Assembly: GCA_017381015.1 (NCBI GenBank)
Contig: JAFOCV010000065.1
Coordinates: 1-34,924 of the forward strand
Direction: 5' to 3'
DNA length: 34,924 bases
Source: Bacteroidaceae bacterium
GTDB taxonomy: Bacteria > Bacteroidota > Bacteroidia > Bacteroidales > Bacteroidaceae
Position numbers and translations under genes: made by a program. Shown here piece after piece: positions 7,905 through 33,590 of this stretch. Below the pieces are notes generated by a model that ran no database searches, was not told the origin of the DNA, and saw only the letters and a list, made by a program, of their open reading frames with translations. Positions within the stretch are counted from its first letter, which is position 1. The number at the start of each line of letters is the position of its first letter.

Positions 7905-9404
7905 ATGAGCGACAAATTGTATATTTTTGACACCACTTTGCGAGATGGCGAACAGGTTCCTGGGTGCCAGCTCAATACCGTCGAGAAGATTCAGGTTGCC
8001 CGTCAGTTGGAGTCTCTTGGCGTAGATGTAATCGAGGCAGGTTTCCCTGTTTCAAGCCCTGGCGACTTCAATTCTGTAATTGAAATCAGTAAGGCTGTGA
8101 CATGGCCCACCATCTGTGCCTTGACACGTGCCGTAGAAAAAGATATTGATGTAGCAGCCGAAGCATTGAAGTATGCCAAGCGAGGACGTATTCATACAGG
8201 TATAGGTACCAGCCCTTCTCATATCAAGTATAAATTCAACAGTACTCCCGAAGAAATCATCGAGCGCGCCGTAGCAGCCGTGAAATATGCAAAGCGCTAT
8301 GTGGAGGACGTGGAGTTCTATGCAGAAGATGCCGGACGTACCGACAATGAATACTTGGCACGTGTAATCGAAGCCGTGTGTAAGGCTGGTGCTACGGTGT
8401 GTAACATCCCCGATACCACTGGTTTCCGTACTCCCTATGAATATGGTGAGAAAATCAAGTTCTTGTATGAGAACGTAGATGCCTTTGCCGCAGGTAAGAG
8501 TATCCTTTCCACCCATTGCCACAACGACTTGGGTATGGCCACCGCCAATACCGTGGCAGGTGTGTTGAATGGTGCTCGTCAGGTGGAAGTAACCATCAAT
8601 GGTATTGGTGAGCGTGCTGGTAATACCAGTTTGGAAGAGGTGGCAATGATTTTCAAGACTCACCCCGACCTTGGTATTCAAACCAATATCAATACCACCA
8701 AGATATATCCCACCAGTCGCATGATCAGTAGCTTGATGAACATGCCCGTTCAGCCCAACAAGGCCATTGTGGGTAAGAATGCCTTTGCACACAGCAGCGG
8801 TATTCACCAGGATGGTGTATTGAAAAATGTAAGCACCTATGAAATCATGGATCCCAAGGAAGTGGGTATTGATGACAATGCTATCGTACTAACCGCTCGT
8901 AGTGGTCGTGCCGCCCTTCGCCATCGTCTGAGTGTGAATGGTGTGGAACTGGATGGCGAGAAGTTGGATAACATTTATCAGGAGTTCCTCAAACTTGCCG
9001 ATAAGAAGAAGGAGGTGACCGACGATGATATCCTGGTTTTGGCAGGTGCCGATCGTTCTGCATCTCACAACATCAAGTTGGATTACCTGCAGGTTACAAC
9101 TGGTAAGGGAGTGAGAAGTGTGGCAAGCGTAGGTTTGCTCATCGCCAACGAATCTTTCGAGTCAGCTGCAACGGGTAATGGTCCTGTAGATGCCGCTATT
9201 CGTGCCGTAAAGAACATCATCAAGCGCGAAATGGTGCTTAAGGAGTTCACCATTCAGGCTATCAGTAAGGGTTCGGATGATATGGGTAAGGTGCACATGC
9301 AGGTAGAGCACGATGGACGTGTCTACTACGGCTTCGGCGCCAACACAGATATCGTAACCGCATCAGTAGAAGCATATATTGACTGTATTAATAAGTTCAA
9401 ATAG
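7905..9404 (+). CDS. leuA: 2-isopropylmalate synthase (LeuA)
   Basis: First enzyme of leucine synthesis, condensing acetyl-CoA with 2-oxoisovalerate. The HMGL-like barrel begins with [16 protein letters not shown], whose R-D and E are catalytic and metal-site residues. [14 protein letters not shown] supplies the metal-binding H-x-H, and [14 protein letters not shown] closes the active-site region. The C-terminal ~140 residues form the regulatory domain that normally binds leucine for feedback inhibition. The length of 499 residues is typical of the long class. The next gene is LeuC, but a 518-bp element starts two bases after the stop codon, replacing what is normally a short gap. Confidence 0.95.
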
Positions 9405-9405
9405 G

Positions 9406-9438
9406 AGACCCACCCTAACCCTCCCTGCGAGGGAGGGG
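9406..9438 (+). repeat. Left terminal inverted repeat of the DUF559 element
   Basis: Starts AGACCCACCC and contains the hairpin CCCTCCCT-GCG-AGGGAGGG. It matches the reverse complement of 9891-9923 at nearly every position; the main differences are around the fifth to seventh base from the hairpin. Confidence 0.8.
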
Positions 9439-9444
9439 ACGTAG

Positions 9445-11307
9445 GTGTGGTGTCTATATCATAGTGTCAGTGTGAATGTAGAAGGATCTTCATTTAAAAC
9501 GGCATCTCCAGATTGGTATGAATTGCTGAAAGTATACGCTCGCAAAAATAGGAATAATCCAACTATAGCGGAAAAGGTGTTGTGGCAGCATTTGCGCAAC
9601 AAGGCTTTAGGAGTAAAATTTTTGCGCCAGCACATCATTGGAGATTATATTGTGGATTTTGTTTCACCAGAATCAATGTTGATTATAGAGGTTGATGGAG
9701 CATATCATTCGGAACGCGAACAACAATATAACGATGAGGTAAGAGCTAATGTTTTAAAAAGAATAGGATTTTGCTTTTTGAGATTTTCTAATGAGGAAGT
9801 TTTGCATAATACACAGGATACATTAAATAAAATAAAACAACATATAGATATGAACACAAAGGAACTTAATAAGAGTGTAGGCGCAGTGTCTCCCTCCCTC
9901 GCAGGGAGGGATGGGGTGGGTCTTACCCTCTTCGATAAAATTTGGGATGCTCACGTAGTGCAAAACGTGGAGGATGGCCCAACACAATTGTACATTGACC
10001 GTTTGTATTGCCACGAGGTAACTACACCTCAGGCTTTCGATACATTGAGAGATAAGAATATCAGAGTGTTCCGTCCCGAACAGGTGGTGGCTATGCCCGA
10101 CCATAATACTCCTAGCGACCAGCAGGAACGTATCGACGACCCCATCGGACGCAAGCAGGTGGAAACTCTTGCCAAGAACTGTGCAGAGTTTGGTATTCGC
10201 CACTTTGCCATGGGTACCAAAGACAATGGTATCATTCATGTGGTAGGTCCTGAGAAGGCTTTGTCTCTTCCCGGAATGACCATCGTTTGTGGCGACTCGC
10301 ATACATCCACCCATGGTGCTGTAGGTGCTATTGCTATGGGTATTGGCACTAGCGAGGTGGCTCAGGTTTTGGCTTCGCAAACTATTCTTCAAAGCAAGCC
10401 CAAGACCATGCGTATTAATATTGAAGGAACTTTACCCGAGGGTACCACCGCCAAAGATGTAGCTCTATACATTATGGCACAGATGACCACATCTGGCGCA
10501 ACTGGTTATGCCGTGGAATATGCCGGTTCTACTGTTCGCAATATGAGTATGGAGGGTCGCTTGACACTTTCCAACCTTTCTATCGAGATGGGTAGTCGTG
10601 CTGGCTTGATAGCTCCCGACGAGACAACTTTTGCTTACCTCAAGGATAGAGAATATGCTCCTAAGGGAGAGGCTTGGGATGAGGCTGTTGCCAAGTGGAA
10701 GCAACTTTACTCTGATGAGAATGCAGTCTTTGACAAGGAGGTAACATATCGTGCTGAGGACATTGTACCTCGTATCACCTATGGTACCAATCCTGGTGCA
10801 GGTATTGCCATAGACGAGTGCATACCCACTTTGGAGGAGATAGATGAGGCTGATCGTGGTCAGTTCCTCTCAATGTTGGAGTATATGCAATTCCAACCTG
10901 GTCAGAAGTTGGAAGGCACTCCTGTTGACTATTGCTTCTTGGGAGCATGTACCAACGGACGTATCGAGGATTTCCGTGCTTTTGCCTCTGTGGTGAAAGG
11001 CAAGAAGAAGGCCGACAATGTAGTAGCATGGCTTGTGCCCGGTTCTTGGTTGGTGCGTCAGCAGATTATCGACGAGGGAATAGACAAGATTTTGGAAGAA
11101 GCAGGCTTTGAATTGCGCTTGCCTAGTTGTTCATCTTGTTTGGCTATGAATCCCGACAAGGTTCCTACTGGTAAGTTGTCAATCTCAACCAGCAACCGTA
11201 ATTTCGTTGGACGTCAAGGTCCTGGTGCACGCACCATCCTGGCAAGCCCCTTGGTAGTAGCAGCTTCGGCTATTACTGGTGTAGTAACTGACCCTCGTAA
11301 ATTGTAA
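9445..11307 (+). CDS. leuC: 3-isopropylmalate dehydratase large subunit (LeuC), in frame behind a DUF559 endonuclease domain
   Basis: One uninterrupted frame of 620 codons. Residues ~20-134 are a DUF559 domain with [12 protein letters not shown] (D71) and IEVDGAYH (E82, D84, H88), the presumed nuclease site. Residues ~160-620 are a complete LeuC, beginning [14 protein letters not shown], with [10 protein letters not shown] and 4Fe-4S ligands C502 (GACTNGR), C562 and C565 ([10 protein letters not shown]). LeuC with LeuD isomerises 2-isopropylmalate to 3-isopropylmalate. The normal start (M-K-T-LFDK in Bacteroides from memory) is gone. LeuC may be made as a fusion from GTG 9445 or a nearby start, or start at ATG 9850 (26 extra residues) or GTG 9916, inside the repeat and preceded by AGGGAGG. 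The DUF559 part has no clear ATG start of its own. An internal start is more likely than a 620-residue fusion, but the sequence cannot decide. Confidence 0.85.
9891..9923 (+). repeat. Right terminal inverted repeat, overlapping the leuC start
   Basis: Contains CCCTCCCT-CGC-AGGGAGGG and ends GGGTGGGTCT, directly followed by ACC CTC TTC, the codons for T-L-F of LeuC. It carries an in-frame GTG at 9916, seven bases after the purine-rich AGGGAGGG, which could act as a ribosome binding site. Confidence 0.75.
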
Positions 11308-20741: not shown

Positions 20742-21632
20742 ATGAATTACATTATCGAAAACGAATATCTTCAGGTTACTATCGCCTCTCTGGGTGCCGA
20801 GGTAATCAGTGTTGTTGACAAGGAGACAGGCAAGCAACTATGGTGGGATGCCAACCCCGAGTATTGGGCAGGATATTCTCCCATTCTCTTCCCCGCCTGT
20901 GGTGGTTTGTGGAATGGTGAATACAAGTATCATGGCAAGACCTACAAGATGGTCAAGCACGGTTTTGTGCGCATGATGGAGTTTACTCCCGTGGGCGAGG
21001 CTCAGTACGGCAGTATGAGTTTTAGTGTGCAGGAGACAGAGGAAACCCTCCAGCAATATCCTTTTGCCTTCAATCTGACTATTACCTATACTCTTGATGG
21101 CAAGACTCTCCGTTGCAATGCCAGTGTGTCCAACCCCTCCGATACCGAGGTGCTGCATTATCAGATAGGTGGTCATCCAGCTATCATGCTGCCTGACTTT
21201 GAAAAGGGTGCCGAGGTGGTAGGTTACATGCGCCCCGAACCTCAGGATGGTATCAGCGTGGTACGTGCCAGCGAGCAGGGTTGCTTTGGCGGCGAGCGCT
21301 ATCTGGTGCCTCAGACCGAGGAAGGTCTTATCCCTATCTGCGTAGATACCTTCCACAACGAGGCTCTTATCTTTGATAAGTATCAGGTTAAGGCTATGAC
21401 CTTGCTACGCACTGATAAAGAGACAGAAATCTGTCGCATCACCCACGGCGCACCCGTATTGCTGGTATGGCAGATGACCGACCTTCTGTGCCCTTACGTA
21501 TGTGTGGAACCATGGTATGGTATGCCTGACCGTATTGGGTATAGTGTGGAGCTGGACATCCGTCCTTACTCTCAGCATGCTATGCCTGGTCAGGTGTCTG
21601 TGCACAACCTGTGGGATATCCAGTTTTGCTAA
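20742..21632 (+). CDS. Aldose 1-epimerase family protein (LacX-like)
   Basis: Galactose-mutarotase-fold protein of 296 residues. LFPACGGLWNGEYKYHGKTYKMVKHGFVR supplies the conserved arginine/histidine neighbourhood (KHGFVR), YQIGGHPAIMLP the second histidine, and VCVEPWYGMPD the catalytic glutamate. These correspond to the LacX/YeaD-like branch, not to classical GalM, so the sugar substrate is not known. No signal peptide, so cytoplasmic. It follows the pta-ackA terminator and precedes a 189-base gap with a nonamer array; no sugar operon surrounds it. Confidence 0.85.
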   Translation: MNYIIENEYLQVTIASLGAEVISVVDKETGKQLWWDANPEYWAGYSPILFPACGGLWNGEYKYHGKTYKMVKHGFVRMMEFTPVGEAQYGSMSFSVQETEETLQQYPFAFNLTITYTLDGKTLRCNASVSNPSDTEVLHYQIGGHPAIMLPDFEKGAEVVGYMRPEPQDGISVVRASEQGCFGGERYLVPQTEEGLIPICVDTFHNEALIFDKYQVKAMTLLRTDKETEICRITHGAPVLLVWQMTDLLCPYVCVEPWYGMPDRIGYSVELDIRPYSQHAMPGQVSVHNLWDIQFC

Positions 21633-21678
21633 TGTCTTTCGCTGAATAGCTAGATGTAGGTGGTGGGCAGTATCTTCC

Positions 21679-21772
21679 GAGTAATCTGAATATTCTGAGT
21701 ATTCTGAGTAATCCGAGTATTCTGAGCAGTCCGAAAATTCCGAGTAATCCGAACAATCGGAATCGGACAATC
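21679..21772. repeat. Nonamer tandem array before cstA
   Basis: Nine 9-base units of the form GAGTAATCT, GAATATTCT, GAGTATTCT, GAGTAATCC and so on fill 21679-21759, followed by a related remnant to 21772. The minus strand reads as a Ser/Asp/Tyr/Glu repeat only because the unit is a multiple of 3. It lies 50 bases before cstA, where the promoter or leader should be. Confidence 0.8.
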
Positions 21773-31996: not shown

Positions 31997-32317
31997 ATGA
32001 TTATTACAACAACCCCCGCTATATCTGGCAAGGAGATAACGAATTATCTTGGTGTAGTTACGGGCGAAACCATCTTTGCCATCAATGCGGTTCGCGACTT
32101 TTTCGCTTCCATAAGAGACATAGTTGGTGGTCGCACCAATTCATACGAAGAGGTTCTGACCAAGGCTAGGACAGAGGCTCTCAATGAGATGCAGCATCGC
32201 GCAGAAGCCCTGGGAGCAGATGCCATAGTAGGTGTGCATATCAGTTATGAATCCCTGGGCGGCAATGCCACCATGCTGATGGTATGTTGCACGGGTACAG
32301 CGGTAAAGTTAGCATAA
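31997..32317 (+). CDS. YbjQ/UPF0145 family protein, copy 1
   Basis: A 106-residue protein starting MIITTTPAISGKEITNYLG, with GADAIVGVHISYE and MVCCTGTAV near the end, matching the YbjQ/DUF74 family (pentameric fold, sometimes labelled heavy-metal-binding). Role unknown. It lies 15 bases after the GntR gene and so is likely in the same operon. A second copy 1273 bases downstream is identical in protein except for the last residue (Ala here, Gln there). Fourteen other codons differ, all silently. Confidence 0.9.
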   Translation: MIITTTPAISGKEITNYLGVVTGETIFAINAVRDFFASIRDIVGGRTNSYEEVLTKARTEALNEMQHRAEALGADAIVGVHISYESLGGNATMLMVCCTGTAVKLA

Positions 32318-33269: not shown

Positions 33270-33590
33270 ATGATTATTACAACAACTCCCGCTATATCTG
33301 GCAAGGAGATAACGAATTATCTTGGTGTAGTTACGGGCGAAACCATCTTTGCCATCAATGCGGTTCGCGACTTTTTTGCTTCCATAAGAGACATCGTTGG
33401 TGGTCGCACCAATTCATACGAAGAGGTTCTGACCAAGGCTAGGACAGAGGCTCTCAATGAGATGCAACATCGCGCAGAAGCCCTGGGAGCAGATGCCATT
33501 GTAGGTGTACATATCAGTTATGAATCCCTAGGCGGCAATGCCACCATGCTGATGGTATGCTGTACAGGTACGGCAGTAAAACTACAATAA
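33270..33590 (+). CDS. YbjQ/UPF0145 family protein, copy 2
   Basis: Same 106-residue protein as copy 1 at 31997, except for Gln as the last residue. Fifteen codons differ in all, fourteen of them silent, and eight of the fifteen lie in the last ten codons. Outside the gene the flanks are unrelated. This pattern means either strong selection on every residue or gene conversion of the 5' part. Pentamer formation by mixing the two products is possible but not shown. Confidence 0.9.
   Translation: MIITTTPAISGKEITNYLGVVTGETIFAINAVRDFFASIRDIVGGRTNSYEEVLTKARTEALNEMQHRAEALGADAIVGVHISYESLGGNATMLMVCCTGTAVKLQ

Follow-up and report, generated by a model that had tools for sequence, protein, structure and literature searches.

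A DUF559 nuclease gene between hairpin-bearing inverted repeats at a Bacteroidaceae leuA-leuC junction: a probable REPIN-like mobile element

Introduction

The question raised by this locus is why a single small nuclease gene, bounded by inverted repeats that each contain a hairpin, lies between leuA and leuC in a Bacteroidaceae bacterium, and whether it belongs to a mobile element. The 34,924 nucleotides of contig JAFOCV010000065.1 (assembly GCA_017381015.1) analysed here, referred to as the window, contain at this junction a 518-bp unit with one gene of the Pfam family DUF559 (PF04480). A first-pass annotation of the window had likened the unit to repetitive extragenic palindromes (REPs) with their REP-associated tyrosine transposases (RAYTs), and had proposed that the DUF559 protein mobilises or copies the hairpin repeats. 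From sequence comparisons we conclude that the unit is probably the autonomous copy of a compact mobile element, in which one DUF559 nuclease lies between two inverted REP-type palindromes, resembling a REPIN (REP doublet forming a hairpin) with DUF559 instead of the RAYT. This reading is drawn from related units at different places, uninterrupted sites elsewhere, the co-variation of ends and nuclease, and gene-less doublets of fixed orientation. At the genomic level the earlier proposal is supported, and the DUF559 protein may itself be the mover.

Results

The unit is bounded by inverted arms of 32 nt each, 94% complementary and spaced 454 nt apart, and each arm holds a C-rich hairpin (Table 1), as the first-pass annotation had described. 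These hairpins are the sole C-first stems of at least 8 bp (loop of at most 6) in the window, and a search with the 19-mer hairpin allowing up to three mismatches matched only the two unit ends there, with 0 matches expected from shuffles. The head of the window's REP reads AGACCCACCC, the consensus across the wider loci being CCTCACCCC. Among open reading frames (ORFs) of at least 90 amino acids, only DUF559 lies mainly between the ends, its frame running on into leuC, and no transposase family was found among the Pfam matches, with neither a Y1 nor a DDE transposase in the unit, so that the description of a single nuclease gene without a transposase held. Two other assignments were tried and rejected: the only match of the unit to a known RNA family (E 0.76) fell far under its gathering score, and PADLOC gave only weak matches to known defence systems, the best being mREase_II (E 4.2e-06).

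The gene between the arms matches PF04480 with E 3.4e-33 and 114.2 bits against a cut-off of 20.6. Its predicted catalytic residues are D61, E72, D74, H78 and D87, numbered from base 9475; D61, E72, H78 and D87 are invariant across 38 aligned rows and D74 is at least 90% conserved. The intact site previously given as D71/E82-x-D84/H88 is therefore present, its residues being D61/E72/D74/H78 when counted from base 9475. The structure model predicts a Vsr/homing-nuclease fold distinct from that of Y1 transposases. A literature search covering neither preprints nor most subscription journals found no published link between DUF559 and palindromic repeats, nor did the accessible parts of the literature on Vsr, NGO0050 (3hrl), E. 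coli YcjD and Caulobacter CCNA_02930 tie any of these to such repeats. As separate observations, on cyanobacterial plasmids DUF559 lies within a long annotated coding sequence in one case (L144) and precedes a PglX gene in another (L139), and in our own reading of the sequence it is in frame in restriction-modification-like genes at L109 and L112.

In order to assess whether DUF559 genes are generally flanked by such repeats we scored inverted repeats between the 250-bp flanks of each locus (score at least 12), with shifted windows as controls, in a genus set of 61 genomes, in a wider group made up of 148 genomes from the phylum of the window, and in named loci, namely the 80 best among 574 confirmed relatives, from Chloroflexi, Proteobacteria, Nitrospirae, Planctomycetes, candidate phyla and others. 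DUF559 matches were present in 37 of the 61 and 78 of the 148 genomes. The PF04480 search was silent in its E. coli control, and ycjD of K-12 is annotated as DUF559; the control strain may lack the gene or the search may miss members, so a missing match in a genome is no proof of absence. In the genus, 68 of 71 distinct DUF559 loci passed the test against 0 of 213 shifted windows (67/70 against 1/269 in an earlier run), and C-first palindromes stood on both sides of 59 of the 71 loci against 2 of the 213. In the wider group such palindromes were found on both sides of 40/66 loci against none of the 204 controls, and on at least one side of 58/66 against 18. Amongst the named loci, 63/78 passed the repeat test against 4/92 for the flanks of other ORFs taken from these loci, with palindromes on both sides in 56/78 against 1/92 and on at least one side in 74/78 against 14/92, whilst 6/12 loci from a plasmid collection passed against 3/48 shifted windows.

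The association of these repeats with DUF559 genes is thus above chance, as had been anticipated, and chance or base composition as its cause is ruled out by the shifted windows, the other-ORF flanks and the shuffles. The pattern has exceptions, since three of the 71 genus loci failed the repeat test and 8/66 wider and 4/78 named loci had no C-first palindrome on either side. When flanks were swapped between loci, a score of 12 was reached in 35/280 draws, which we put down to the shared REP consensus. A strict detector saw a plan in which a head near CCTCACCCC is followed, after a few nucleotides, by a CCCTCTCC-type hairpin; it was empty on both sides in 22/71 genus, 34/66 wider, 4/12 plasmid and 10/78 named loci, most of the loci it missed being recovered by the looser tests. 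Ends and nuclease also co-vary: among 68 genus loci, compared in 2,226 pairs after 52 with shared context had been removed, REP similarity and DUF559 identity rose together (Spearman 0.24, a value that none of 1000 permutations attained).

Copies of the palindromes also occur away from the nuclease genes. The general REP pattern CCTCACCCN{2,4}CCCTCTCC was found in 31 of the 148 genomes and its reversed control in none. It occurred in 24/78 genomes with any DUF559 match against 7/70 without (p 0.0016), and in 24/63 with a match below E 1e-15 against 7/85 others (odds ratio 6.9, p 1e-5), statistics that treat as independent genomes which are not. Within the genus the 21-nt hairpin CCCCTCCCCTGTTAGGGAGGG, allowing one mismatch, was present in 131 copies in 12 of the 61 genomes, the reversed control never being found. 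Of 23 neighbouring pairs closer than 200 bp, 21 were heads-out and none heads-in, with doublet spacings of 40-161 bp, so that the gene-less doublets keep the orientation of the DUF559 unit ends; a further five heads-out pairs have spacings of 428-527 bp and correspond to the DUF559 units in G003, G016, G029, G042 and G043. Each unit brings two copies itself, which makes their bare presence in those genomes trivial; beyond the unit ends these genomes hold 4, 13, 27, 3 and 28 extra copies respectively, and of the 56 genomes without the unit seven hold any.

The window's own genome (G000) carries three DUF559 genes, of which the other two are likewise bracketed by C-rich inverted repeats, less clearly so at C74. 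In addition, at C21, C87 and C109 the window's hairpin (one mismatch) stands with a variant 108-157 bp away, forming gene-less doublets with the same outer ends. By eye, two of the three share with the left end in the window its sub-terminal GGACGTAGG, and look as internal-deletion derivatives would. All three adjoin members of one paralogous gene family and so are maybe not three independent insertions; the paralogous copies were rejected as empty sites, their downstream flanks being too different to be clean. At C135, where the hairpin has three mismatches, no doublet of this kind is present; with the pattern reversed as a control, this genome gave two matches. The spacer of the C21 doublet (L006) contains a short tandem tract, GAGTAATCTGAGTAATC..., similar to a low-complexity ORF, SDYSEYSDCSEYSD..., at 21405-21770 (minus strand) of the window.

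Comparison of the leuA-leuC junction between relatives shows both empty and occupied sites. leuC was located in 56 of the 61 genus genomes and 30 junctions were read, of which 24 are free of any interruption, with lengths of 5-163 bp when the leuA stop is counted, four carry DUF559 units and in two no leuA was found upstream; the junction is not uniform. The four units differ in their ends. Their derivation from a single ancestral entry was rejected, because they do not form one clade (p-AU 0.003, the tree having been viewed before the test), and the site was therefore entered, or underwent replacement of its gene, on more than one occasion. Candidate excision scars at leuC read TAAGAGACCCTCCCCCATGAAT (L108) and ATGGGGGTCTCC (L098). 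The first-pass annotation had the unit fill the leuA-leuC gap exactly; it does lie there, but the leuC start ATG of relatives is also lost in the window, where the nearest in-frame starts are inside the element (Table 1). DUF559 has no stop before leuC, the joint open frame measuring 620 codons, and in all four units the nearest upstream ATG in the leuC frame is within the element, 19-26 codons upstream.

Insertions within genes were found at two further sites. For leucyl-tRNA synthetase (LeuRS), matches were obtained in 25 genomes from the family to which G140 belongs, and 21 of these share an uninterrupted interval of 72 residues. There G140 and G198 carry a 149-residue DUF559 unit in frame and G159, at the same point, a bare hairpin doublet of 27 residues in frame. 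At that site leuS of G182 (L377) is lengthened in frame by 131 residues, which match MTES_1575 only weakly and fall short of the cut-off (E 0.021), and which may represent a nuclease in decay or a sister nuclease. No target duplication was evident by eye at the few LeuRS insertions compared. In a gene that we take to be apgM-like (matches in 47/61 genomes; 36 loci read), a DUF559 unit is fused in frame at the C-terminus in G003, G016, G042 and G043, G043 having in addition an in-frame doublet of the same hairpin in a loop; by eye, G001 and G046 carry single in-frame REP-like pieces. Separately, G055 and G060 (L435, L437) hold unrelated in-frame inserts without REP character in this loop, which thus takes inserts in general. 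Finally, of the 14 closest DUF559 pairs (at least 75% identical), three share neither flank (L038/L071, L030/L049 and L069/L077).

Elsewhere in the window, near-identical 106-residue ORFs (MIITTTPAISGKEITNYLGVVTGETIFAIN...) at 31997-32317 and 33270-33590 stand either side of a 248-residue ORF, likely the result of a recent short-range duplication.

Table 1. Coordinates of the putative mobile unit, its parts and its neighbours in the window.
Feature	Position	Strand	Remarks
Whole unit (putative mobile element)	9406..9923	.	518 bp, between leuA stop (9404) and first leuC codons
Left REP	9406..9437	+	head AGACCCACCCTAA 9406-9418; hairpin CCCTCCCT-GCG-AGGGAGGG 9419-9437; head outward
DUF559 (PF04480) Vsr-like nuclease frame	9445..9849	+	Pfam domain about 9529-9846
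In-frame stretch, LeuC N-terminal extension if start is ATG 9850	9850..9927	+	alternative start GTG 9916 in right REP
Right REP	9892..9923	-	left REP inverted; hairpin 9892-9910, head 9911-9923
leuA (2-isopropylmalate synthase), left neighbour	7905..9404	+	named from sequence and first-pass annotation
leuC, right neighbour	9925..11307	+	usual start codon replaced by element

Discussion

If the unit is a mobile element of the kind proposed, the DUF559 nuclease would recognise its own hairpin pair, formed most easily in single-stranded DNA at replication, and would cut at the hairpin feet so that the unit is released or copied. Gene-less doublets could be moved by the same nuclease in trans, and released units or doublets would join new sites without evident target duplication. 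Because the hairpins and the gene are stop-free in a suitable frame, with a start codon near the right end, insertions in or beside genes would be tolerated.

A number of observations weigh against this reading. In the wider group only 34/66 loci pass the repeat test (against 0/204 controls), and the strict detector found heads outward in the genus (32/71 loci heads-out) but mostly inward in the named loci (32/78 heads-in). Across the 148 genomes, 39 of the 63 with a DUF559 match below E 1e-15 lack the REP motif and seven of the 85 without such a match carry it. G018, a genome 80% complete in which no DUF559 match was found, G041 and G015 hold 14, 14 and 11 copies of CCCCTCCCCTGTTAGGGAGGG without the cognate unit. 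Among the 14 closest DUF559 pairs, 11 have one flank or both in common and appear inherited in place, a Caulobacter DUF559 protein is, from the accessible part of its description, a Vsr-like nuclease working in another setting (PMC12907096), and the palindrome near E. coli ycjD occurs in far more genomes than ycjD itself. The proposal that the DUF559 protein mobilises or copies the hairpin repeats is thus favoured by the genomic association, the empty sites and the doublets, whilst the orphan hairpins of G018, G041 and G015 count against it. The three comparisons that the first-pass annotation had named as able to refute its proposal, namely repeats at DUF559 genes in relatives, the junction in related strains and the association of repeats with the gene, came out in its favour, with the exceptions given above.

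The main rival is homing of the EDxHD type, in which a free-standing endonuclease cuts its target sites (the leuS point, the leuA-leuC junction) and double-strand-break repair copies the gene with its flanks, the hairpins limiting the copied tract, regulating the gene or being remnants, and not serving as nuclease substrate. After another DUF559 protein, the nearest solved fold to the structure model is the homing endonuclease I-Bth0305I, and the accessible part of PMC9403480 places a DUF559 gene in the EDxHD homing-endonuclease family. That one LeuRS site has taken up DUF559 units in two genomes, a doublet alone in a third and, in a fourth, another insert weakly matching a nuclease family, that leuA-leuC has been occupied repeatedly by units that are not monophyletic, and that target duplication is not evident by eye would all fit homing. 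However, gene-less doublets at many places in fixed orientation are unexpected for a site-specific process, and related units stand in unrelated contexts, so that we consider this explanation possible but rather unlikely. Somewhat less likely still, in our judgement, is movement of the REPs by another factor, a RAYT/Y1 transposase or a host enzyme, with DUF559 a passenger or a domesticated repair nuclease near palindromes. A single Y1_Tnp gene is present in G000, 18/61 genus genomes have a Y1 match that exceeds the cut-off of the family, and some genomes are REP-rich without a cognate DUF559; moreover, REP-flanked nuclease genes are established for RAYTs, a Bacteroidetes subclass of which has atypical flanking structures, as far as the available text of PMC6006769 and PMC3116915 goes. 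Yet by hand count 29 of the 34 genus genomes with DUF559 below E 1e-15 have no Y1 match below E 1e-10, all five genomes with the CCCCTCCCCTGTTAGGGAGGG unit being among them, and beside the sole Y1_Tnp gene of G000 there is no window-type REP and no C-first palindrome. The Y1 search of the 61 genomes and this locus led us to reject a RAYT as the general mover, and a passenger would hardly co-vary with the hairpin or sit between the ends at almost every genus locus.

That the repeats are ordinary GC-rich hairpins, terminators or mRNA stabilisers beside small genes with no mobility, is very improbable. The unit hairpins do fold well as RNA, but palindromes on both sides were nearly confined to DUF559 loci in the comparison with other ORFs, and the scattered doublets and uninterrupted sites, together with in-frame leuS and apgM-like insertions that are missing in relatives, contradict this view.

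The preferred reading, a DUF559 mobile element, bears on E. coli, where YcjD, annotated as DUF559, lies between sapF and fabI and the ycjD query was covered to at least 80% in 3,362 of 5,426 genomes. The C-rich repeats adjacent to ycjD are presumably those called Box C, and in 5,376 genomes the 54-base palindrome near the gene had, at the permissive E limit of 10, a median of 19 occurrences. Genomes without ycjD were rejected as a clean empty site, eefRABCD being reported at the locus there in the accessible part of PMC12817139. More broadly, DUF559 proteins could be the enzymes of an unrecognised, transposase-free element class crossing phyla, in which a single PD-(D/E)XK nuclease would move pairs of CCTCACCCC-type palindromes and generate REPIN-like populations, an idea that we regard as evenly balanced. 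If true, this would account for orphan palindromes such as the C-rich repeats by ycjD, and would explain many C-rich palindromes and their PSPxGRG...GEG-type peptides inside ordinary proteins. A Pfam family labelled 'unknown function', found in 78/148 phylum genomes, would be a mobility enzyme, REPIN-like repeat populations would have arisen at least twice with unrelated nucleases, and a small nuclease-plus-hairpin system would be open to testing, with ycjD of E. coli K-12 and its palindrome as a laboratory model.

Comparison with known systems

The unit shares with IS200/IS605 elements and miniature inverted-repeat transposable elements its hairpin ends, small size, gene-less derivatives and lack of evident target duplication, and differs from them in having no Y1 or DDE transposase. 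Rickettsia palindromic elements are palindromic repeats in frame in protein-coding genes, like the REPs described here; we know of no nuclease gene linked to them, whereas the present doublets have a gene-bearing partner with identical ends. With the EDxHD homing endonucleases the unit shares the predicted nuclease fold of I-Bth0305I, a single small nuclease, occupied and empty sites, and the recurrent occupation of a site within a conserved gene. It differs in that no intron or intein was seen in it and in its ends, which are hairpin repeats that also occur as gene-less doublets in many copies.

The closest likeness in mode of working is to REPIN/RAYT systems. There too, short headed palindromes form inverted doublets of fixed orientation and also border a nuclease gene, several types exist within a genus, and there is co-diversification. 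Doublets with a cognate nuclease (PMC3116915) and in-frame REP insertions within tnpA-REP genes (PMC6006769) are described there in the parts of these papers available to us; here the doublets are represented by the heads-out CCCCTCCCCTGTTAGGGAGGG pairs and the three window-like doublets of G000. REPs of such systems bear a GTAG or CGTC tag. According to the accessible text of PMC3733652, the CGTC tag of REPs is often altered to TGTC or CCTC, so that CCTC does not by itself exclude it, whilst the REP stems described there have A/T in the first two positions and those found here are C-rich. The gene flanked by the palindromes is PF04480 and not a cognate HUH/Y1 gene, the nuclease being PD-(D/E)XK/Vsr-like where that of RAYTs is HUH-Y1. 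A further difference is that gene-bearing units occur at varied places, with uninterrupted sites elsewhere. The REP/RAYT comparison made at the outset thus holds for the working mode of the element and not for membership of that system, since the nuclease fold differs.
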